A stretch of DNA of 36,121 nucleotides from Candidatus Alcyoniella australis (GTDB lineage Bacteria; Lernaellota; Lernaellaia; JAVCCG01; Alcyoniellaceae), in NCBI GenBank assembly GCA_030765605.1, contig JAVCCG010000005.1, forward strand, positions 1 through 36,121, read 5' to 3'. The notes under the pieces were generated by a model. The model was not told the DNA's origin. It searched no databases and was given only the letters and a program-made list of their open reading frames with translations. This document shows positions 3,269 through 34,150 of this stretch, piece after piece. Within the stretch, counting starts at the first letter, position 1. Each line of letters starts with the position of its first letter. The translations under genes were made by a program, and so were the position numbers.

Positions 3269-6200
3269 GTGAACAAGCATCTAACGGCCGCCAGTGTTTT
3301 CATTCTGTTGTTGTTCGTCCTGCTCTGCGCCCTGCCTGCCGCGGCGCTCGAGGGGCAGCTCAATCGCTTTTTCGAACAAAACGGCCCGGCCTGGGAGATC
3401 GTCCCCGATGCCCGGGGCGATATCGTGCGCCGAATGTGGGGCCAAGGGATCGCCTTGGACCTGCGCTCCGACGCTGTGCCGGGCGATGTGGCCGCGGCCT
3501 GCGATAATCTGATCGAACGCTGGGGGTCCCTGTGGGGCGCGGACCGCGCGCAGTTGGGCGAGCCGACAATCGTTCGCGTCCACGACCTGTGGTTCGTGCG
3601 TTACGACCAGCAGCTAAACGGCGTGCCGGTGTTCGGCGCGCGCCTCGAGCTGCGCGTTCACGCCACGGGCTCGGTTGTGCTGGTGCGTTCCGACCTGATT
3701 CCCGGCCTGAGCCTGGCCCCGGATCAGCCCGACGTTGCTCTCAATTTCGAACGGGCGCTGGAGGCGGCCTGGGATTTCTGCGGGATCGATGCGCATTCCG
3801 CGCGAATCAGCGCCCTGGCCTGGCCCGACCGCGCCACACAGACCGCGCACTGGGCCTGGCGGATCGAGGCCCGGCCCGGCTCGGGCCGCACGCGGCCGCT
3901 ATGCTATATCGACGATCGCGACCTGGACCTGATCGCCCGCCGCGACCTGACCAACCACGCGGCGGTCAGCGGCACGGTCAGCGCCAATGTGCATCCGCTG
4001 TACGGCACGCAGACGCCGGTTGAGCTGGCGCTGGCCGAGCAGCGTGTGAGCCTGGTCGGCGTGGGCTTTGACATTACCGACGGCTCGGGCGATTACAGCG
4101 TCGAGGCCGGCTCGGGCGCGGTTACGTTGCAGGCCGAGCTCGACGGACCGTTCCTGGACGTGGTCGACCTCGGCGGCGCCTCGCGCATCACACGCGCCAC
4201 CAGCGCCGGGGACACCGAGGACCTGCTGTGGTCAGACGGCAACTCCAGCGCGGCCGAGCGCGACGTGTTCTTTCACCTGACCGCGGCGCGGGCCTTTATG
4301 AAAAATCTCGACACCGAGTTCACCGGCCTGGACGCGCTGCTCTCCGCCCAGACCGGCGCGGCCGGGACCTGCGACGCCTGGTGGGACGGCGCGGGCTTTT
4401 ACTTCACCGCGGCCGGCGGCGGCTGCGGCGACATGGGCACCTTCGCCGACGTGATCTACCACGAGTACGGCCACGCGGTGACCGAACAGCTCGGCGAGGA
4501 GCCCGACGCGTTCCCCGACGAGCTGCTCGAGGCGTTCTCCGACTACTTCGCCTGCACGATCACCGACGATCCGCAGTTCGGCGAGTACGTGCAGGGCACG
4601 GCCGACCCGTTGCGCGACATCGACCAGCCCGATCTGGTGACTCCCGACGACCTGACCGGCGATGCGGAGCACGACGGAATGATCCTCTCCGGCGCGCTGT
4701 GGGACATGCGGCAGAATTTAATCGAGTTGCTCGGCCCGGTGGCCGGACAGACCCTGGCCGACGACCTGTTCCACTTCGCGCGCTACGGCCTGGCCCAGAC
4801 CTTCGAAGACTATATGTTCGACCTCTGGGCCCTGGACGACGATAACGGCGACCTATCCGACGGCTCGCCCCACGCCTACTACATCATCGAGGCCTTCAAC
4901 CGTCACGGCATGGGCCCGCAAACCGGGTTCGACCTGCTGGGCGCCACCGTGCAAAACGACGACAACGACAACGGCACGGCCGAGCCCGGCGAGAGCATCG
5001 AGCTGGTGCCGACCCTGAGCAGCCGCTACAAGGGGACCGACGAGCTTGAGCTGACCCTGAGCTCGGACAGCGAATTCGTGACCGTTGATTCCGACTCCGT
5101 GACCTTCCCCTACGTCGAATCCTGGAGCGAGGTCACGGCGGGCGCGGGCTGGCAGGTCAGCGTGTCGGCCGACGCGCCGTTCGGCACCCAGATCGAGCTC
5201 GAGGTCGAGATCTCCACGCCCGACAAGTCCTACAGCGAGACCGAGCCGCTGGTGCTCACCGTGGGTTCGTTCCAGGTGCTGTTCGTGGACGACGACGGCG
5301 GCCAGGAGCTCGAGGTCTACCTCAACTGCGGACTGCTGGACAGCGGCTACACCTTCGCCTCCTGGAACGTGGCCGGGGTCGAGGCCAGCCCGGGGCTGGT
5401 CGACCTGGGCGCCTACCCGGTGGTGGTCTGGAACACCGGCGACCAAAACGAGAACACGCTCACCGCCGAGGACCAAACAGCCTTGGCCGCGTACCTCGAG
5501 GACGGCGGCGCGCTGCTGATGATCGGCCAGGGGATCCTCAACGATATCGGCGCCACGACCTTCGCCGCGCAGTATCTGCACGCGGCCTCCTCCGAGCTCG
5601 ATACCGGCGCGACCCTGCTCTTTCCGCCGGAGAACGAGCCGATCACCGCCGGGATGTTCTTCGAAACCCTGATCTACATTTACGCCGACGAGGCCGACGT
5701 GATCGTGCCCGGGGCCAACGCCAACTCGCTGCTGCTCAACCACTTAAGCGGCGCGAACGCGATCAAGTTCCCGCAGATCGGGCAGGAAGCCTACCGGATG
5801 ATCTTCTTCAGCTTCAGCTTTGAGGCGCTGCCGATCGAGGGAACCGAGCCCAGCACCGGCCCGACCCTGCTGGCGCGCAGCCTGGACTGGCTGCTGCCGC
5901 TGGAGCTGATCCACAGCTCGCCCTACGATGGCCAGACCGACGTATTGATCGACTCCGAGGTCACCCTGCGCTTCACCAAGCCGCTGGATCAGGAAAGCCT
6001 GGAGCTGATGATCAACCCCGATCCGGGCGAGCTCAGCGTAAGCTGGTCAGCCGACTCGACCGAGGTCACGATCAGCCACGCCGAGCCGTTCCCCGGCGAG
6101 GGCAGCGAGATCAGCGTCCAGGTTGTGAGCGCCACCGATCTTTTGGGCAACGAGCTCCAACGCGGCGACACGCCCAACCCGTTCAGCTTCTTGACCGCCG

Positions 6201-6610
6201 GGCCGCCTCAGCCACAGACGGTAGCGCCCGATCACGGCGCGGCCGACGAGCCGACCGAGGTGCTGATCCAGGGCGCGGAATTTATCGAGACCCCGCAACT
6301 GGCCCTCAACGATACGCCGCTGGAGCAGGTCGAGTTCCGCTCCGCCGACGTGTTGACCGCCCTGGTGCCCGAAGGGCTCGGCCAAGGGACCTACGATCTG
6401 ATTGTGACCAACCCCGACGGCCAGAGCGCCACGCTGAGCAACGCCTTCACCGTGGGCCAGGACGACGATTCAGGGGATGACGACGATGATAGCGGCGGCT
6501 GCGGATGCAGCATGTCGGCAGCTAACGGCAATTCCTTGTCGCTATCATTAATGTTATATATCGCGCTGTTCTTGGCCGCATGGCTCGGCCTGAGCCGCAA
6601 GCAGTACTAA
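3269..6610 (+). CDS. Secreted thermolysin/fungalysin-like metalloprotease with Big_5 and IPT domains and a Cys/TM tail
   Basis: This 1113-residue exported protease begins with a Sec signal peptide (cleavage near AAA-LE, residue 27), then an FTP/PepSY-type propeptide (about 95-180). The gluzincin catalytic domain has HEYGH (His398, Glu399, His402), Glu421 in EAFSD as the third zinc ligand, and DGMILSGALWD downstream, as in M4/M36 enzymes. Next come a glutamine-amidotransferase-like alpha/beta segment starting at FVDDDGG (about 670-800), an SbsA-type Ig-like domain (about 880-970) and an IPT/TIG domain (about 980-1065). The C-terminus has an Asp run, GGCGC (Cys1078, Cys1080), a transmembrane helix (about 1090-1107) and SRKQY, like a MYXO-CTERM sorting signal. 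It is the first gene of an operon, 12 nt from the C25 protease. The GTG start has GAGG upstream. Confidence 0.85.
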   Translation: MNKHLTAASVFILLLFVLLCALPAAALEGQLNRFFEQNGPAWEIVPDARGDIVRRMWGQGIALDLRSDAVPGDVAAACDNLIERWGSLWGADRAQLGEPTIVRVHDLWFVRYDQQLNGVPVFGARLELRVHATGSVVLVRSDLIPGLSLAPDQPDVALNFERALEAAWDFCGIDAHSARISALAWPDRATQTAHWAWRIEARPGSGRTRPLCYIDDRDLDLIARRDLTNHAAVSGTVSANVHPLYGTQTPVELALAEQRVSLVGVGFDITDGSGDYSVEAGSGAVTLQAELDGPFLDVVDLGGASRITRATSAGDTEDLLWSDGNSSAAERDVFFHLTAARAFMKNLDTEFTGLDALLSAQTGAAGTCDAWWDGAGFYFTAAGGGCGDMGTFADVIYHEYGHAVTEQLGEEPDAFPDELLEAFSDYFACTITDDPQFGEYVQGTADPLRDIDQPDLVTPDDLTGDAEHDGMILSGALWDMRQNLIELLGPVAGQTLADDLFHFARYGLAQTFEDYMFDLWALDDDNGDLSDGSPHAYYIIEAFNRHGMGPQTGFDLLGATVQNDDNDNGTAEPGESIELVPTLSSRYKGTDELELTLSSDSEFVTVDSDSVTFPYVESWSEVTAGAGWQVSVSADAPFGTQIELEVEISTPDKSYSETEPLVLTVGSFQVLFVDDDGGQELEVYLNCGLLDSGYTFASWNVAGVEASPGLVDLGAYPVVVWNTGDQNENTLTAEDQTALAAYLEDGGALLMIGQGILNDIGATTFAAQYLHAASSELDTGATLLFPPENEPITAGMFFETLIYIYADEADVIVPGANANSLLLNHLSGANAIKFPQIGQEAYRMIFFSFSFEALPIEGTEPSTGPTLLARSLDWLLPLELIHSSPYDGQTDVLIDSEVTLRFTKPLDQESLELMINPDPGELSVSWSADSTEVTISHAEPFPGEGSEISVQVVSATDLLGNELQRGDTPNPFSFLTAGPPQPQTVAPDHGAADEPTEVLIQGAEFIETPQLALNDTPLEQVEFRSADVLTALVPEGLGQGTYDLIVTNPDGQSATLSNAFTVGQDDDSGDDDDDSGGCGCSMSAANGNSLSLSLMLYIALFLAAWLGLSRKQY

Positions 6611-6622
6611 GGAGTAGGCAAG

Positions 6623-9600
6623 ATGACCAGACGACCGATCCTGCGCAATCGTATCTGGGCGCTGGCCCTGGCGTTGGTTTTAATCGCGGCGGGCGCCGCG
6701 TTTGCCCAAGGCGAGTGGATCAGCCTCAACGGAAACGCCGTTCCCGGCGCCGAGCCCGAGCTGCTGACCCTGGAGAGCAATAATACGGAAATCACCCTGC
6801 GCATCTCGCTGCCCGGATTCTATCTTGAGCAGCTGATGGCCGAGGGGCTGATCTATGATCGAATCTCGGTTCCCGGCTGCGCCACCACCGAACAGATCGG
6901 CATGCCCGAGCTGCCGGTAGTGCGCGCCACGCTTGCTCTGCCGCCGCAGGCCGATGTTCAAGGCTCGATCAAAAGCGGCGAGTTCCGCGCGATCAGCGAT
7001 CTGCAGGTCTTCCCGTTCCAGACCCCGACCACTGACGAAGACCCGATCGTCTTTGACATTGATCGCGGCTACTACGAGTCGGGCGTCCCCTTTCCCGAGA
7101 TCGAGTTTGAGGTTGCCGAGCCCGCGACCTGGCGCGACCTGCGAGTGGTGCAGATCGTCTGGAGCCCGTTTGTCTACGATCCGATCAGCGGCGTGCTCGA
7201 GATCGCTGAGTCGGCCGAGGTGCGCCTGACCTTCAGCGGCCCGGGCACCGGCACCGACGCGCCGATCGGGCCCTACAACATCACCCCGGCCTTTGAGAAT
7301 TCTTACGCCCACACGCTGGTCAACTTCCAGTCGCTCAACATCGCATCGCGGCAGCGCGACGCGGCCGACCCGACCTACGACTACCTGGTGATCGCCGATC
7401 CGGCGCTGGCGGCCAACGCCAAGCTCGCCGAGCTGGTGGCCGCACATCAGGCCGAGGGCCTGGCCGTCCTGGTGGTCGATACCAGCACCACCGGCTCTAC
7501 CGCCAGCGAGATCAAGAGCTACCTGACCACGTTCTACAGCACCAACGCCAATACCTACGTGCTGTTCGTGGGCGACGTTGACGCGATCCCGCTCTACTCC
7601 TGGGACGGCAATCCGTCCGACTCGTGGTACACGTTCCTAGACGGCGGCGACATGTACGCCGAGGTCGGCCTGGGCCGTTTCCCGGCCAAGAACGATGCGG
7701 ACCTGAACATGATGATCGACAAAACCCTGGACTGGATCGACAACACCTACGGCGGGGCCTGGCAGCAAAAGAGCGTGCTCATCGCCCACAAGCAGGAGTA
7801 TCCGGGCAAATACACCGCGTGCAAGGAGACGATCCGCACCTATTCCTACGTCTACGACGCCCCGACCTTTGACACGGTCTACGGCGGCGCGGGCGGCTCC
7901 TGCCAGGACGCCACCGACGCCATTGAGGACGGCCGGGTGCTCGTCAACTACCGCGGCCACGGTTCGGCCACCACCTGGTCCTCGTGGGATACCAGTTCCG
8001 CCTCGTTCACCACCACCATGGCCCATGCGCTGTCGACCAACGGCATGAACCCGGTGGTCTACTCGATCGCCTGCGTCAATATGTCGCTCAGCGGCTCGGC
8101 CGAGTGCCTGGCCGAAGCGTTCATGGTCGACACCGACGGCGCCGTGGCGTTTTTGGGCGCCACCCAGCCCAGCTACACAACTCCCAACCACGATTTCGAC
8201 CGCTACCTCTACCGCGCGCCCTACGACAAGGCGATCGCACCGATCAGCCTGATCCTGATGGACGCCAACGCCGAGCTCTACGACCAGTACGGCGCGGGCA
8301 GCTACGGCGAGACCAATATTAAGATGTACCTCTGGCTCGGCGATCCGGCGATCGAGATCCCGGTGGCCGGGCTGCTCAGCCCCGAAAGCCTGACGGCCGC
8401 GCCCGACGGCGAGATTGCCATCGACCTGAGCTGGACCGACCGCACATCCGACGAGGACGGCTTTGAGATCGAACGCAAGCCCGCCGGAGGCGCGTGGAGC
8501 GTGCTGGACACCGTGACCGCCAGCGTCGTGAGCTACAGCAACGAGGGCCTGAGCGAGGGCAGCGAATATTCCTACCGCGTGCGGGCCTACAAGGGCAGCG
8601 ACTATTCGCTGTACTCCAACTCCGCCACCACCGCGACCCTGCCCGCGGCGCCCAGCGACCTGTTCGCCCAGACGTTGGTCGGCGGCGAGGTCTACCTGGT
8701 CTGGACCGACAACTCCGGCGGCGAATCGGGTTACATCGTCGAACGCGCCACAGCCGATAAGCTCGACTGGTCGCCGCTGGCGACCCTGGGCTCCAACTCC
8801 GAGAGCTACACCGATTCGGGGATGGGCGAGTGCGAGACCTACTCCTATCAGGTGCGCGCCTACAACATCGGCGGCGAGTCGGCCAACGCCGGCCCGGCCG
8901 CGGCCACGACCCTGCCCAACCCGGCCTCGGGCCTCAGCGCCCAGGCGCTGAATTCCGAGTCGATCCAACTGGACTGGACCGATAACTCCGCGGGCGAGAC
9001 CGGCTACCGTGTGCTTGGCAAATTGGCCGGCGAGACCGACTACAGCGAGTACGCCCAGGTCGACGCCGACGCCATCCAATACCAGGTCGATAGCCTGGAC
9101 GAGGCCACGACCTATTCGTTCAAAGTCTGCGCCGTCGGCGTGGGCGGCGACAGCCCGACCACCAACGACGCCTCGGCCACGACCTTGCCCAACGCCCCCG
9201 ACGGCCTGAGCGCCCACGGGGTGAGCGAAAGCAGCGTGGCCCTGGCCTGGTCCGACAACTCCGGCGGCGAGTCCGGCTACCGCATTGAGCGCCTGCTGGC
9301 CAAGGACGGCGAGTTCGAGGTCGTGGGCGTAGTGGCCGCCGACGCCTCCGAGTTCGAGGACGACTCGCTGACCGAGGCCACCTTGGCGACCTACCGCGTG
9401 CGCGCCTTCACCGACATCAACGACTCCGCGCCCTCCAATGAGGTGCAGGCCGCCAGCCTGCCCGCGGCCCCCAGCGACCTGGTCGGCGTGGTGGTGTCGC
9501 ACAGCGAGCTCGAGATCAGCTGGATCGACAACTCCGGCGGCGAGGCCGGGTACGTGATCGAGCGCGCCGACGCCGACGACAAGGGCGACTTCGAGGAGGT

Positions 9601-9796
9601 CGGCCGGGTCGAGTCCAACGTGGTGGTCTTTGCCGACGAGGGCCTGAGCGCCGGTACGACCTACCTCTACCGCGTGGCCGCCTACGTGGCTCAGGACTTC
9701 TCCGCCTATTCCGACGAGGTCGAGCTGACCACCGAAGGCGATCCCTCGGGCGACGACGACGACGATGACGACGACGCCTGCGGCTGCGGGCTGTAA
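6623..9796 (+). CDS. Gingipain-like C25 cysteine protease with fibronectin type III repeats and poly-Asp-CGCG tail
   Basis: This 1057-residue exported protease starts with a signal peptide (cleavage near AFA-QG, residue 28) and a C25-type propeptide region to about residue 240. The caspase-like C25 domain (about 250-590) has the catalytic pair His446 in NYRGHGS and Cys484 in SIACVNMS, 38 residues apart, as in the gingipains. Five fibronectin type III repeats (about 600-1040) follow, each with a recurring W-x-D-N-S-G-G-E-x-G-Y core. The tail is eight Asp then ACGCGL and stop. Unlike the upstream protease, it lacks a membrane helix after the Cys-Gly-Cys motif, and none is encoded just past the stop. 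The start has AAGGAG eight bases upstream. C25 enzymes cleave after Arg or Lys; specificity here cannot be read from sequence. Confidence 0.88.
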   Translation: MTRRPILRNRIWALALALVLIAAGAAFAQGEWISLNGNAVPGAEPELLTLESNNTEITLRISLPGFYLEQLMAEGLIYDRISVPGCATTEQIGMPELPVVRATLALPPQADVQGSIKSGEFRAISDLQVFPFQTPTTDEDPIVFDIDRGYYESGVPFPEIEFEVAEPATWRDLRVVQIVWSPFVYDPISGVLEIAESAEVRLTFSGPGTGTDAPIGPYNITPAFENSYAHTLVNFQSLNIASRQRDAADPTYDYLVIADPALAANAKLAELVAAHQAEGLAVLVVDTSTTGSTASEIKSYLTTFYSTNANTYVLFVGDVDAIPLYSWDGNPSDSWYTFLDGGDMYAEVGLGRFPAKNDADLNMMIDKTLDWIDNTYGGAWQQKSVLIAHKQEYPGKYTACKETIRTYSYVYDAPTFDTVYGGAGGSCQDATDAIEDGRVLVNYRGHGSATTWSSWDTSSASFTTTMAHALSTNGMNPVVYSIACVNMSLSGSAECLAEAFMVDTDGAVAFLGATQPSYTTPNHDFDRYLYRAPYDKAIAPISLILMDANAELYDQYGAGSYGETNIKMYLWLGDPAIEIPVAGLLSPESLTAAPDGEIAIDLSWTDRTSDEDGFEIERKPAGGAWSVLDTVTASVVSYSNEGLSEGSEYSYRVRAYKGSDYSLYSNSATTATLPAAPSDLFAQTLVGGEVYLVWTDNSGGESGYIVERATADKLDWSPLATLGSNSESYTDSGMGECETYSYQVRAYNIGGESANAGPAAATTLPNPASGLSAQALNSESIQLDWTDNSAGETGYRVLGKLAGETDYSEYAQVDADAIQYQVDSLDEATTYSFKVCAVGVGGDSPTTNDASATTLPNAPDGLSAHGVSESSVALAWSDNSGGESGYRIERLLAKDGEFEVVGVVAADASEFEDDSLTEATLATYRVRAFTDINDSAPSNEVQAASLPAAPSDLVGVVVSHSELEISWIDNSGGEAGYVIERADADDKGDFEEVGRVESNVVVFADEGLSAGTTYLYRVAAYVAQDFSAYSDEVELTTEGDPSGDDDDDDDDACGCGL

Positions 9797-9829: not shown

Positions 9830-10474
9830 ATGAAGCATCTCAAGCTGACGATCCTGATCCTGGCGTTGCTGGCGGTCCTGGCGTTGTGCCTGGGCGCCTG
9901 TAATACCAGCAACGACGACGATAATCGTGACGACGATGACGACGACGACGTTCTCGACGACGATGACGACGATGACGACGACGACGAGGGCTGCCCGGAC
10001 GCGGACCAAACCAACCTGGGCCATGACGAAGACAAAACCATGGCCGACTGGACCCTGCCCAACCACCAGGGCGACGAGATCTCGCTCTACGACCGCTATT
10101 GCGGCTCGATCGTCGTGATCTTGGTCGGCGCGGGCAACTGCCCCTACTGCGGACAGGAGGCCGACGCGTTCCAGGGCTACTACGACGAATACAAAGACGA
10201 CGGCGTGGACCTGGTGGTGGTCATGGGCGGCAACTTCAGCGGCGGCACGCCCACCGAGGGTTTCCTCGACACTTACAAAGAACGGCATGGGCTGGACGAC
10301 GTTGAGGTGCTGGGCGACACGAACTACAGCGTGACCGGGCCGTACTTCCCGGATAATGGGATCCCGATGACGATCTTCCTGCGCCGCGACATGGAGATCG
10401 GCTACATTGTGCTCGGCTGGTCCGACGCGATGATCGAGGGCAAAATCAAGCGCATGCTGGTCGAAGACGAATAA
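9830..10474 (+). CDS. Thioredoxin-like lipoprotein with poly-Asp linker (CPYC)
   Basis: This 214-residue lipoprotein has a signal peptide with lipobox LGAC (lipidated Cys24). An Asp-dominated linker (about residues 29-52) acts as a charged spacer away from the membrane. The redoxin/AhpC-TSA-like thioredoxin fold (about 70-210) has CPYC (Cys104, Cys107) and a cis-proline in GIPMTIF. The CPYC pair suggests disulfide exchange on an exported partner. The Cys-containing tails of the two proteases upstream are possible substrates, which is inference. It lies 33 nt after the C25 gene and ends the operon before a terminator. AAGGA is placed nine bases before the ATG. The linker DNA is a GAC/GAT microsatellite, so its length may vary without changing frame. 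Confidence 0.85.
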   Translation: MKHLKLTILILALLAVLALCLGACNTSNDDDNRDDDDDDDVLDDDDDDDDDDEGCPDADQTNLGHDEDKTMADWTLPNHQGDEISLYDRYCGSIVVILVGAGNCPYCGQEADAFQGYYDEYKDDGVDLVVVMGGNFSGGTPTEGFLDTYKERHGLDDVEVLGDTNYSVTGPYFPDNGIPMTIFLRRDMEIGYIVLGWSDAMIEGKIKRMLVEDE

Positions 10475-30960: not shown

Positions 30961-31155
30961 TCAGGGCGAAGGGGGCAGTTTGCCGTAGGGGCCGCGCCAA
31001 AGGTCGGCGTGGGACAGGAACTGTTCGTAGCCGTGGCGGCGGATGAATACCACGGCTTTGCGTCAGACCTCTTCCCCGGTCCAGGGTTTGCCGGGGTTGG
31101 AGTTGATTTCGCGCAGCACGTTGTGGACGAAGTCCGGCTCGCGGGCGGACAAACA
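30961..31155 (-). pseudogene. 3'-end remnant of a radical SAM gene with in-frame open extension (right end)
   Basis: The minus strand reads CLSAREPDFVHNVLREINSN, PGKPWTG, EEV, then TGA at 31063. This matches CLTARDPDFVKGVLREINSN of the intact gene ending at 34150. Past the TGA the same frame stays open for 33 more codons with GC-rich, coding-like usage, ending GPYGKLPPSP and a TGA at 30961. The paralogues stop at the same place as the first TGA, so the extension is probably the tail of another lost gene rather than a readthrough product. Upstream of 31155 the homology is lost at the terminator of the lipoprotein gene. Confidence 0.65.
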
Positions 31156-31181
31156 AAGGGCCGGGCGTTTCGGCCCGGCCC
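31151..31181 (-). terminator. Rho-independent terminator of the poly-Asp lipoprotein gene
   Basis: Arms GGGCCGGGC (31158-31166) and GCCCGGCCC (31173-31181) are followed on the minus strand by TTTGTTT. It lies 24 nt after the stop codon at 31205. Confidence 0.8.
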
Positions 31182-31204
31182 TGGTATGCGCGGAAGAATC
31201 GGGA

Positions 31205-31897
31205 TCAGTCCAGCGGATCCGGCGGATTGGTCAGCAAGTCGTTGATCACGTAGGAGAAGTAGGTCGTGTTCAGGCCCTTCTGCTTGTGCACGCACACACC
31301 GTTCTGGTCGAGGATCGCGTAGAACGGAATGGAGAACTTGGAGTTGTTGAACCTCGCTCCAACGCCCCAGTTGGGATCGATCATCACCACGTATTCCAGG
31401 TTATTGGTGTCGCGCCAGTTTTGGATAAACTCCAGGTCGGGGGTCTGGCGGACGGAATTCTCGGCCATCAACTGCAGCACCTCAAAGCCTTGGTCGTGGT
31501 ACACGTCCCACAGCTCGGACTGCAGCAGCAGCGTATCGCTGCGGCAGGTGGGGCACCAGGTGGCCATGGTGTCGAGCACCAGCACCTGTCCGGCGAAGTC
31601 GCTCAGCGACTGGGTCTCGCCGGTATGGCTCATCAGGGTGAAGTCCGGGAAGACGTCGCCCACGTCATATTCGCCATCGTCATCATCGTCGTCAATATCA
31701 TCGTCGTCGATGTCGTCGTCGTCGACGTCGTCGTCACCAGTATCGTCGTCGTCATCCACGTCGTCATCGTCAGCCACATCGTCGTCGGCTTCGTCGTCAT
31801 CATCATCGTCGTCGTCGGACGAGACCGTGCCACAGGCGACCAGCATCGCGGTGGCGATCAGCATGACAAAGAGGATTAATTGCCATCTGGTTCTCAT
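31205..31897 (-). CDS. Thioredoxin-like (TlpA/redoxin) lipoprotein with long poly-Asp linker (CPTC)
   Basis: This 230-residue lipoprotein has lipobox MLVAC (lipidated Cys22) and a linker of about 47 residues, nearly all Asp (about 28-74). The TlpA/ResA-like domain begins DVFPDFTLMSHTG and has TWCPTCRSD (Cys115, Cys118) and a cis-proline in FSIPFYAIL. It is predicted to be an envelope thiol-disulfide reductant. It shares its architecture with the lipoprotein at 9830 but has a different Cys motif and little other similarity, so the poly-Asp linker is a recurring module. It is transcribed away from the radical SAM genes across a 165-bp gap. Confidence 0.88.
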   Translation of the reverse strand: MRTRWQLILFVMLIATAMLVACGTVSSDDDDDDDDEADDDVADDDDVDDDDDTGDDDVDDDDIDDDDIDDDDDDGEYDVGDVFPDFTLMSHTGETQSLSDFAGQVLVLDTMATWCPTCRSDTLLLQSELWDVYHDQGFEVLQLMAENSVRQTPDLEFIQNWRDTNNLEYVVMIDPNWGVGARFNNSKFSIPFYAILDQNGVCVHKQKGLNTTYFSYVINDLLTNPPDPLD

Positions 31898-32062: not shown

Positions 32063-33103
32063 ATGAGCAGCTTCGACCGCCTACGCAAGCATATCGGCTA
32101 CCTGGGGAAGTACCCGGGGATCATTCCGCGGGTGGTCGAGAACTACTGGCGGCTGATGCTGCGCGGCGAGCCGCGGCTCAAGGGGCTCGAGTTCGCCCTG
32201 ACCTTCGCCTGCCAGTGTAGTTGCGAGCATTGCTCCGCGGCCCTGTTGCGCCGCAAGGACCGGCCCGAGCTGACCCTGCCCCAGATCAAACGCGTGCTGG
32301 GCGAGGCGCACCGCTTAGGCGCGCTCAACGTCAACCTCACCGGCGGCGAGTTTATGCTGCGACGCGACGCGCGCCAGATCGTCGAGGCGGCCAGCCCGCG
32401 CGATACCGTAGTCTCCGTGGCCACCAACGGCCTGACTATCACGCCCCAAGCCGCGCGGGACATGGCGCAGTGGGGTGTGCGGATCGTCACCATCAGCCTG
32501 GACTCGGCCGACCCGCAAATCCACGACGCCGGGCGCAACCATCAAGGTTGCCACGCCGCGGCCCTGCGCGCAGCGGACCTGCTCAAACAGCAGGGGGTCG
32601 AGGTCTTCTTCTGCACGATTCTCACCCGCCGCAACGCGGCTGACGGCGACATCTTCCGCATGATCGAAATCGCCAACCAACGCGACTGTATGCTGACGAT
32701 CAACATGCCCTGCCCGGTAGGGCGCTGGTCCGCAGCGGACATCGGCCTGGACGAGGGTGGCCGCAGGCTGCACCGCGAGCTTTTAAGCGTGCCCCACGTG
32801 CGCTGGGAGGGCTACTCCAACTACGCCTCGGTCGGCTGCCCGATGGGCATCGAGAAGCTCTACATCAGCCCCTACGGCGATGTGATGCCCTGCAACTTCC
32901 TGCATATCGGGTTCGGCGATTTGCGCAAGCAGACCCTGGGCGAGATCTGGAGCCTGATGCTCACGCGCTCGCCGTTCAACCGCATTGTGGACGGCTGCCC
33001 GGTGAGCAGCGACCAGCAGTTCATCGAACGCTTTGTCGAGCCGCTGTGGGACAGCGATCAGCTCCCCCTTGATTGGCGGCAGCACCCAGCGTTCCGGCAT
33101 TAA
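32063..33103 (+). CDS. Radical SAM protein with SPASM-like C-terminus, copy 1
   Basis: This 346-residue enzyme binds a 4Fe-4S cluster and S-adenosylmethionine through C-x3-C-x2-C (Cys50, Cys54, Cys57 in ACQCSCEHC). NLTGGE and SVATNGL are the usual following strands. The C-terminal region (GCPMGIEKLYISPYGDVMPC) resembles the SPASM/twitch region that holds auxiliary iron-sulfur clusters. Such proteins modify peptides or act in cofactor synthesis; no precursor peptide gene was found beside it. It is directly followed by a paralogue, with no gap. Confidence 0.85.
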   Translation: MSSFDRLRKHIGYLGKYPGIIPRVVENYWRLMLRGEPRLKGLEFALTFACQCSCEHCSAALLRRKDRPELTLPQIKRVLGEAHRLGALNVNLTGGEFMLRRDARQIVEAASPRDTVVSVATNGLTITPQAARDMAQWGVRIVTISLDSADPQIHDAGRNHQGCHAAALRAADLLKQQGVEVFFCTILTRRNAADGDIFRMIEIANQRDCMLTINMPCPVGRWSAADIGLDEGGRRLHRELLSVPHVRWEGYSNYASVGCPMGIEKLYISPYGDVMPCNFLHIGFGDLRKQTLGEIWSLMLTRSPFNRIVDGCPVSSDQQFIERFVEPLWDSDQLPLDWRQHPAFRH

Positions 33104-34150
33104 GTGATGGCCATGTACTCCCGCCGCACCGTGCTCAAAGATTTGCGCCAGCTTTTCGACCATCCGCGGCTGCTGCCCAAGCTGGCCAAGGTCTACGCAC
33201 GCCTGGCATTGGGACGCGGCCCGGTGCTGCGCGGGGCCGAGTTCGCCGTGACCTACCGCTGCCCCATGAACTGCGCGCACTGCCTCAAGACCGGGCTGGT
33301 CGATGCGGAGCGTAAAGAGCTGCGGCCCGACGAGATCGCCGGGATCACCGGCCAGATGGCCGACCTGGGCGCGATCTTCTGCAACCTCACCGGCGGCGAC
33401 CCACTGGAGCGCGACGATATCGAGGAGATCGTGACGCGCTGCGCCGCGCGCCGCGATATTTTGATCACCATCGGCACCTCGGGCTGGCAGCTCACGCCGC
33501 AGCGCATGGCCGCACTGGTGCGCGCGGGCCTGGACATGATCACCTTCAGCCTCGATGGCGCAAGTGCGCAGACCCACGACCGCAGCCGCGGCTGCCCCGG
33601 GCACTTTGAGCAGACCATTGCCGCGATCCAGATGGCCCAGGCCGTGGACCTGCCCACCTGGGCGACCACGATTCTTACCGCGGAGAACACGGCCTCGGGC
33701 GAGATCTTCGCGGTGGCCGAGCTGGCGCGCAAACTCGGCGTGACCCTCACGGTCAACTGGGCCTATCCCGCGGGCGAATGGGCGGGGGACGAGCTGCTGC
33801 CCGACGAGCTGGAGGTCGAGGCGTTCCGCACGCTGCAACGCATGCCCCACGTGCGCTGGGAGGGGACCAGCAACTGGTTCGGCGAGGGCTGCCCCGCGGG
33901 GAGCGAGAAGATCTACATCACGCCCTACGGCGACGTGTTCGCCTGCTCGGTGATCCAGGCCACGTTCGGCAACCTGCGCAACGAACCCCTGTCCACGATC
34001 CACCGCCGGATGATCGAAGTGCCGATCTTCGACGGCCGTTGCAAAGACTGCCTCACCGCCCGCGATCCCGACTTCGTCAAGGGCGTACTGCGCGAGATCA
34101 ACTCCAACCCCGGCAAGCCCTACAAACCCTGGACCGGGGACGAGGTGTAG
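33104..34150 (+). CDS. Radical SAM protein with SPASM-like C-terminus, copy 2
   Basis: This 348-residue paralogue of the preceding gene has Cys53, Cys57 and Cys60 (CPMNCAHC) for the catalytic cluster, NLTGGDPL, and a C-terminal region with GCPAGSEKIYITPYGDVFAC, CKDC and the end LREINSNPGKPYKPWTG. That end is the sequence found as remnants at 29422-29493 and 31063-31155. The start is GTG at 33104, ATG at 33107 or ATG at 33113; all lie directly after the previous stop. The two enzymes may act as a pair on one substrate. Confidence 0.85.
   Translation: MMAMYSRRTVLKDLRQLFDHPRLLPKLAKVYARLALGRGPVLRGAEFAVTYRCPMNCAHCLKTGLVDAERKELRPDEIAGITGQMADLGAIFCNLTGGDPLERDDIEEIVTRCAARRDILITIGTSGWQLTPQRMAALVRAGLDMITFSLDGASAQTHDRSRGCPGHFEQTIAAIQMAQAVDLPTWATTILTAENTASGEIFAVAELARKLGVTLTVNWAYPAGEWAGDELLPDELEVEAFRTLQRMPHVRWEGTSNWFGEGCPAGSEKIYITPYGDVFACSVIQATFGNLRNEPLSTIHRRMIEVPIFDGRCKDCLTARDPDFVKGVLREINSNPGKPYKPWTGDEV

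Follow-up and report, generated by a model that had tools for sequence, protein, structure and literature searches.

A helix-free aspartate-cysteine tail on a C25 protease of Candidatus Alcyoniella australis and its apparent membership in a class-wide C-terminal tag

Tails of two adjoining proteases

We examined 36,121 nucleotides (nt) from Candidatus Alcyoniella australis (contig JAVCCG010000005.1, positions 1 to 36,121 of the forward strand; "the window" below), in which two adjoining protease genes both encode a C-terminal run of aspartates (Asp) with a cysteine (Cys) motif behind it. The second gene (6623-9796, + strand) encodes a C25 (gingipain-like) protease, with Pfam matches to Peptidase_C25 (PF01364, 192 bits), to the propeptide (PF08126, 71 bits), and to fn3 in five stretches (130 bits). 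Its tail (9752-9793, + strand), of a kind found in all seven genomes of the class, consists of eight Asp (9752-9775) and ACGCGL (9776-9793), and the stop codon TAA (9794-9796) comes two residues past CGC. No helix follows the Cys motif, the remaining two frames reach stops without a hydrophobic stretch, and the protein ends in GL with no basic C-terminal cluster. Nor does it match TIGR03901, the model for MYXO-CTERM, at E <= 1. So, it has the Cys signature motif of MYXO-CTERM (ACGCGL) and lacks the helix, the basic end, and the model score. The N-terminus (MTRRPILRNRIWALALALVLIAAGAAFAQGEW) contains no Cys and thus no lipobox Cys after the signal peptide. We rejected the idea that this protein is PorU, the type IX sortase (NF033707 score of 64.3 versus a cut-off of 420).

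The first gene (3269-6610, + strand), whose ORF (open reading frame) lies 12 nt from that of the C25 protease, encodes a putative secreted HEXXH metalloprotease-like protein. It has an N-terminal signal-like segment and the sequence HEYGH; among Pfam models, Big_5 scores above its cut-off, TIG below, and FTP reaches 19.3 bits (cut-off 21). Its tail has Asp runs and a GGCGC motif (DDDSGDDDDDSGGCGC, 6461-6508, + strand), then a spacer, a hydrophobic helix of 19 residues (LSLSLMLYIALFLAAWLGL, 6536-6592), and a stop after SRKQY (helix and end together span 6536-6607, + strand). The initial annotation described both tails correctly and called this one MYXO-CTERM-like. That label fits the layout of Cys motif, helix, and basic end (with two basic residues only in SRKQY), but TIGR03901 gives the protein 12.3 bits, under the cut-off of 20. 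For the C25 tail, the annotation suggested either a naturally truncated signal or a CGCG motif that works alone, and it allowed for a sequencing error at the stop codon.

Helix-less tails are common in the class

The class is represented in our set by seven genomes (G000 to G006, where G000 is the window's own), and the next nearest genomes share only the domain. A search of the window's genome for three Asp with Cys-Gly-Cys (CGC) no more than 24 nt further on gave 23 raw matches (overlapping starts included) at 11 places, nine in frame and two out of frame. Eight of the nine in-frame ORFs stop at the motif or at most two residues past it, and only the metalloprotease has a helix. The sorting by helix that the initial annotation had proposed puts eight of nine proteins on the helix-less side. 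Looser patterns showed no excess over the reversed pattern in this genome, neither Cys-x-Cys near a stop after just two Asp nor CGC at a stop with the Asp requirement dropped, so the special feature is the combination of an Asp run with Cys.

Across the class, the pattern of three Asp, then CGC after at most 24 nt, then a stop gave raw counts of 9, 186, 103, 116, 129, 138, and 15 in G000 to G006 (inflated for long Asp runs by overlapping starts), versus 0-2 per genome for the reversed pattern. Among the matches listed for G003, there are at least 41 distinct helix-less ends. A tighter pattern, searched in 386 genomes, matched all seven class members (raw counts of 6-94) and gave one or two matches in 11 of the 379 others. 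The outside matches are mostly out of frame, and judging by match length and stop codon, only the one in G088 is in frame with a true stop. A scan of the named genomes for C25 proteins returned four loci, none of them from a close relative.

We also surveyed 400 kb of G002 (327 ORFs) and 400 kb of G000 (317 ORFs), as called by a simple greedy ORF caller. When three consecutive Asp (DDD) were present in the last 60 residues, Cys was in the last five residues of 15 of 26 ORFs (9/14 in G002 and 6/12 in G000), versus 35 of 618 ORFs without such a tail (13/313 and 22/305; Fisher p ~1e-11). One of the 15, a G002 protein ending in GCKYFF, is not an Asp-Cys tail, and 14/26 gives p ~2e-10. None of the 14 Asp-Cys tails has a helix. 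When the rule was tightened slightly, to DDD in the last 40 residues and Cys in the last five, 14 of the 644 ORFs qualified, versus a mean of 1.8 and a maximum of 6 in 500 shuffles of the tail residues. By extrapolation of the densities seen in the survey, 6 tails per 400 kb in the window's genome and 8 in G002, these genomes would have about 64 and 106 tagged genes, respectively.

C25 homologues chosen without regard to the tail

As a query against the class genomes, we took residues 1-626 of the C25 protein, a part that excludes the tail. The 32 rows that resulted represent 28 genes. Of these, 22 have a complete end, four run off the end of a contig, and the other two are a fragment and a propeptide on its own. 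An Asp-rich linker with Cys in the last five residues is present at 20 of the 22 complete ends, or 21 if a shifted-frame case is included, and a helix is present at none. The endings include GCGC, ACGC, GCCG, GGCG, GGCS, GGCN, ACSS, and similar, so we reject CGC as an obligatory motif (GGCS, GGCG, GGCN, GCCG, and ACSS all depart from it). The terminal Cys is kept among these homologues while the linkers vary. The helix-less tail occurs on them in plain frame in six of the seven genomes and in G005 in a shifted frame only. This G005 protein is the nearest homologue in another genome; it ends in DDDDDEDDAGCGCGF and a stop, in a frame shifted relative to the rest of its ORF, and its ending is the same odd one as the window's ACGCGL. 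Pfam also identified a further C25 protein in the window's genome (L169, ending in SCGCQ), which had originally been picked for its tail and is outside the count of 22.

A portable tag

We collected 110 Asp-Cys tails from the class, 103 helix-less and seven helix-bearing (all selected by Cys in the last seven residues and some by CGC, with a few probably false ORFs among them, such as a G005 fragment). In 77 of the 103 helix-less tails, no residue follows the last Cys. Within the last eight residues, 65 of these tails have two Cys, 22 have three, and 16 have one; the single-Cys tails weaken the idea that a self-contained CXC redox or metal site is the general role. The bodies of the 110 proteins form 51 families (29 of them singletons), so we reject the tag as a property of one protein family. 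Nineteen of 20 tagged proteins matched Pfam models, including papain C1, subtilase S8, carboxypeptidase M14, trypsin-like, S15, and C25 peptidases, and also GH123, GH38, GDPD, purple acid phosphatase, Kelch, and BNR repeats. Among homologous pairs of tagged bodies, the linkers diverge freely; as both members of such a pair were preselected for a terminal Cys, only the C25 set tests whether the Cys is retained. The CGC of the tails is encoded in eleven ways, Asp, Cys, and Gly codons are mixed (GAC/GAT for Asp), and 75 tails have 74 distinct 36-nt ends. The eleven codings and the distinct ends speak for selection on the protein and not for a DNA repeat.

A hydrophobic N-segment lies within the first 120 residues of 75 of the 85 tagged ORFs whose N-terminal end lies inside the locus (signal peptides and lipoboxes were called by ad hoc rules rather than a trained predictor, and first start codons were taken). 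Of the other ten, three (L134, L136, and L149) have what looks like a signal further into the ORF. Four helix-less G003 proteins cluster with the metalloprotease over 80 residues or more, probably through a common repeat domain (a full-length relation was not shown). We also looked for orthologues of the metalloprotease in other genomes, to see if one body can have either kind of tail; this gave only two weak partial matches, both to the last 70-80 residues of the query, and both of the matched proteins have Asp-rich tails that lack Cys. In a sub-group of tails, two to four residues follow the last Cys and the final residue is hydrophobic, which is faintly CaaX-like (L209 CGCGL, L216 CGGCAL, L291 CGCGF, L157 CGCGV, L260 GCGGI, L081 CCGRL, and L265 CCGGSV). 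No NCBIfam tail model matched in the C25 protein (E <= 1) or in ten other tagged proteins (E <= 0.001). Among the titles and abstract openings that our searches of the open-access literature listed, none describes a helix-free form of such a tag.

Judging from these sequences, the C25 tail is one instance of a C-terminal tag that occurs throughout the class, and the helix-less form of this tag is the common one and not a truncation. The plan of the tagged proteins is a signal peptide, enzyme domains, an Asp-rich linker, and one to three Cys at the extreme C-terminus, with no helix. The proposal of a naturally truncated signal is not sustained, as all 14 Asp-Cys tails in the survey are helix-less and C25 homologues keep this form in plain frame in six of the seven genomes. 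A sequencing error at the C25 stop is ruled out by the other two frames, which hold no helix, and by the tails of the homologues. The idea that the CGCG motif works alone gains support insofar as helix-less Asp-Cys tails are class-wide on unrelated proteins, but CGC itself is dispensable.

Asp runs beside Cys at the N-terminus

The third gene of the apparent operon (9830-10474, + strand), which starts 33 nt past the C25 stop, encodes a thioredoxin-like lipoprotein (AhpC-TSA, 40.6 bits). It has Asp runs after its predicted N-terminal lipid Cys, as a mirror of the C-terminal tag. In the survey, 11 of 29 lipobox proteins in G000 and 19 of 37 in G002 have an Asp run within 25 residues past the lipid Cys. 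The ORFs with at least four consecutive Asp are mostly either C-tagged or have the Asp run after a lipobox (15/19 in G000 and 25/34 in G002). Tagged proteins themselves rarely have a lipobox. Among ORFs with a hydrophobic N-segment within 60 residues, 3 of 74 tagged proteins have one, versus 64 of 271 untagged survey proteins (p ~5e-5); within 120 residues, the counts are 3/75 and 64/309 (p ~3e-4). This comparison uses ad hoc rules, and the untagged group includes membrane proteins; tagged proteins inside the survey alone (1/13) are too few to judge. It seems, from sequence patterns, that bacteria of this class place Asp runs beside Cys at one end of the protein or the other and rarely at both. 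There is precedent for such residues at the N-terminus: the accessible text of PMC5080379 describes acidic residues beside the lipid Cys that export lipoproteins to the surface in Bacteroidetes, and that of PMC12802150 describes Gly/Ser- or Asn/Asp-rich residues beside the lipid Cys that mark type II lipoproteins in Acinetobacter.

Elsewhere in the window, 31205-31897 (- strand) encodes what by sequence is another thioredoxin/TlpA-like lipoprotein, with a long Asp-rich linker past the predicted lipid Cys (VACGTVSSDDDDDDDD...). An ORF antisense to it (31043-31879, + strand) has a valine/isoleucine-rich end and is probably spurious. At 32063-34150 (+ strand), there is a radical SAM-SPASM pair side by side, followed by a protein with a DUF3108 match under the cut-off.

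Helix-bearing tails, myxosortase, and type II secretion

TIGR03901 has matches in all seven class genomes (2-13 each at E <= 1, with at least one above the cut-off in each) and in six of 14 control genomes, where none is above the cut-off; some of the E <= 1 matches are false. Several helix-bearing tails in the class have the same Asp-run/GCGC motif as the helix-less ones, for example DDDDDDDGCGCSV...LRRSR. MYXO-CTERM matches are also clustered in adjacent small ORFs at G005:C25:4013-4951 (- strand) and G004:C122:68928-70405 (- strand), and the tails displayed for these clusters are helix tails that are Asp-rich or contain Cys.

Six of the seven class genomes have a match to the myxosortase family model, Mrt_core (above the cut-off in five). 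The myxosortase-family protein of the window's genome (on contig C61) is borderline, with about 98.8-100.4 bits in two scans and a cut-off of 100, and it is under the cut-offs of the more specific models (MrtX 120 versus 180, MrtP 132 versus 250, and MrtC 113 versus 195). The ORF list for the neighbourhood of this gene, which was not scanned with profiles, contains no obvious modifying partner. Two CPBP proteins of the same genome (L026 on C48 and L027 on C4) score 59 and 73 bits against the archaeal MrtA model (cut-off 200), and they are possible further sorting enzymes. The type II secretin GspD matches in all seven class genomes and exceeds its cut-off in six; in G001, the matches are partial and lie on two contigs. 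In G002, the type II genes gspC, gspD, and gspE were found, but none of six proteins scanned there is GspN.

What the tag may do

The existence of the tag, its spread, its portability, the company it keeps, and the terminal Cys in C25 homologues all appear well supported by the sequence comparisons. For its function, we propose that the tag is a surface-anchor signal, whose terminal Cys is modified, probably by a lipid, and that it is a helix-free variant of MYXO-CTERM; we give this reading just short of an even chance. The lipid, the anchoring, the type II route, and the sharing of an enzyme with helix-bearing tails are what we infer. The protein would be exported by Sec, and its terminal Cys would then receive a lipid, or some other link to a component of the envelope, in the same step that would act on the GCGC of helix-bearing MYXO-CTERM-like tails. 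The type II system would place the tagged protein on the cell surface, with the Asp run as a spacer or an export mark. Helix-bearing tails would need myxosortase to remove the helix, and helix-less tails, being made at mature length, would need none.

In TraA of M. xanthus, according to the accessible text of Guo et al. (2025, PMC11980579), the Cys pair of MYXO-CTERM is required for proper cleavage and anchoring. These authors propose that the Cys is lipidated first and that MrtX then cuts on its distal side, to leave a product that ends at the modified Cys. The helix-less tails end about where the product of MrtX cleavage would. Most simply, they would be synthesized already at mature length and then enter the same Cys step. 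The initial annotation expected the window's two proteases to be sorted differently if the Cys motif is the processed or lipidated site; the Asp-run/GCGC motif that they share suggests a common Cys step, with a difference only in later cleavage. The apparent operon would encode three types of anchor in adjoining genes: a C-terminal Cys with a helix (3269), a C-terminal Cys alone (6623), and an N-terminal lipid Cys (9830). A more specific claim, that an Asp-rich linker and a terminal Cys are all that an extracytoplasmic enzyme needs in order to attach lipid at the extreme end of many different enzymes, seems to us plausible though somewhat doubtful.

Several observations weigh against the anchor proposal. 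A soluble C-terminus with no helix would have no obvious way to reach an enzyme in the membrane. For MYXO-CTERM itself, lipidation is only proposed and the lipidating enzyme was not found (Guo et al., 2025, PMC11980579, accessible text). An N-terminal lipobox is present on three tagged proteins as well, and these calls, like those of signal peptides, come from ad hoc rules. In the survey, 12 of the 26 DDD tails are not Asp-Cys tails, and these 12 include cytosolic proteins and lipoproteins without a terminal Cys. One complete C25 homologue (L292, in G003) is untagged. Two Asp-rich proteins found through the C-terminal domain of the metalloprotease have long DDDT repeats and no terminal Cys (L240 on contig C75 of G003 ends in DDDTV and L241 on C371 of G006 in DDDTII). 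Mrt_core matches, below the cut-off, in eight of the 14 control genomes and GspD in six of them (above the cut-off in two), so neither is a specific partner of the tag. Finally, Mrt_core found no match in G003 (a draft, 99% complete), a genome with two helix-type tails; given its many helix-less ends, the absence would also be in keeping with tags for which cleavage is unnecessary.

The main rival is a lipid-free thiol anchor, in which the terminal Cys would be bound covalently, by intermolecular disulfides or in another way, to a glycan or protein of the surface. Such an anchor would not require a membrane helix, a Cys exposed at the end of the chain is well placed for conjugation, and most tails have two Cys (65/103) or three (22) in the last eight residues, in a set chosen partly by CGC. 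The 16 single-Cys tails fit less well. Also, the same GCGC precedes the helices of MYXO-CTERM-like tails, and the Cys pair of TraA is needed for cleavage and anchoring (PMC11980579, accessible text). The rarity of N-terminal lipoboxes on tagged proteins fits the lipid alternative slightly better too, and we consider a thiol anchor unlikely, at about one chance in four. Still less probable, in our judgement, is a signal for secretion or stability without anchoring: the acidic Cys tail would be read by the type II system, or would bind calcium or another metal, and the protein would be released. Soluble hydrolases are typical type II cargo, all seven genomes have a type II secretin match, and the Asn/Asp-rich or Gly/Ser-rich mark of Acinetobacter lipoproteins (PMC12802150, accessible text) lends this some plausibility, but it leaves unexplained why the terminal Cys, and not just the Asp run, is kept at 20-21 of the 22 C25 ends.

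Decay of MYXO-CTERM signals, with the helix lost and little function left, is a very improbable origin of the helix-less tails; C25 homologues keep the terminal Cys despite differing linkers. That helix-bearing tails have the Asp-run/GCGC motif in common with them would fit such decay, but the survey found 14 helix-less and no helix-bearing Asp-Cys tails, and unrelated families carry the tail. We regard an artefact, from a sequencing error at the stop or slippage in a low-complexity GAC repeat, as next to impossible. The apparent frameshift near the tail of the nearest homologue, in G005, is the kind of thing that it would predict, but for the class it is refuted by the tail's presence in seven genomes, by the mixed GAC/GAT and Cys/Gly codons, and by the lack of a helix in other frames.

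If a linker and a terminal Cys do suffice for such lipidation, then modification of MYXO-CTERM-like Cys is independent of the helix, and the modifying enzyme is encoded in these genomes. The class would be a natural test of what modifies the Cys of MYXO-CTERM and of whether the helix is needed, and the tag would give a simple rule for predicting surface enzymes in this bacterial group.

Comparison with known systems

The C25 protein of the window shares its catalytic domain and propeptide with PorU and the gingipains. The C-terminal domain of type IX cargo is folded; unlike such cargo, the C25 protein has no folded C-terminal domain, and its tail is a linker with Cys.

The prenyl anchors of eukaryotic Rab-type proteins are attached to a helix-free C-terminus that ends in C-x-C or CC, and prenylation takes place in the cytosol. 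Unlike these, the tagged proteins of the class are exported (no prenyltransferase search was made). If the terminal Cys is lipidated, then the tag would be a bacterial, extracytoplasmic counterpart of C-terminal CXC/CC lipid anchors.

Among other C-terminal sorting tags, Synerg-CTERM and CGP-CTERM are Cys-based, and to our knowledge these and JDVT-CTERM all have a C-terminal helix, unlike the tails described here. JDVT-CTERM is also a Cys-based C-terminal tag, with a CPBP-family protease (Guo et al., 2025, PMC11980579, accessible text), and the names of the enzyme models pair all three with proteases of this family.

The lipoprotein export signal of Bacteroidetes (PMC5080379) and the type II lipoproteins of Acinetobacter (PMC12802150) resemble the tag, in the accessible text of both reports, in that acidic or Asn/Asp-rich residues adjoin a Cys. 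Those signals are N-terminal and on lipoproteins, unlike the tag, which mirrors them at the C-terminus and whose lipidation we only propose. In Acinetobacter, a Gly/Ser-rich motif serves equally, so Asp is not special there (PMC12802150, accessible text).

The closest likeness is to MYXO-CTERM with its myxosortase (TIGR03901 and MrtX; PMC11980579). In both cases the proteins are exported, many are hydrolases, and a signal peptide at the N-terminus is combined with a GCGC-type Cys motif at the C-terminus. The setting is similar as well, with a myxosortase-family protease in six of the seven genomes, a type II secretin in all seven, and the helix form on some proteins of the class. Unlike MYXO-CTERM, the helix-less tails have no helix or basic end, they have an Asp-rich linker, and they are commoner than the helix form in our survey. 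As these proteins end at the Cys motif or a few residues past it, there is nothing for myxosortase to remove. Bacterial C-terminal sorting tags are described as tripartite, with a motif, a helix, and a basic end (Guo et al., 2025, PMC11980579, accessible text); Cys tags that commonly lack the helix and the basic end would mean that modification of the Cys is separable from cleavage.

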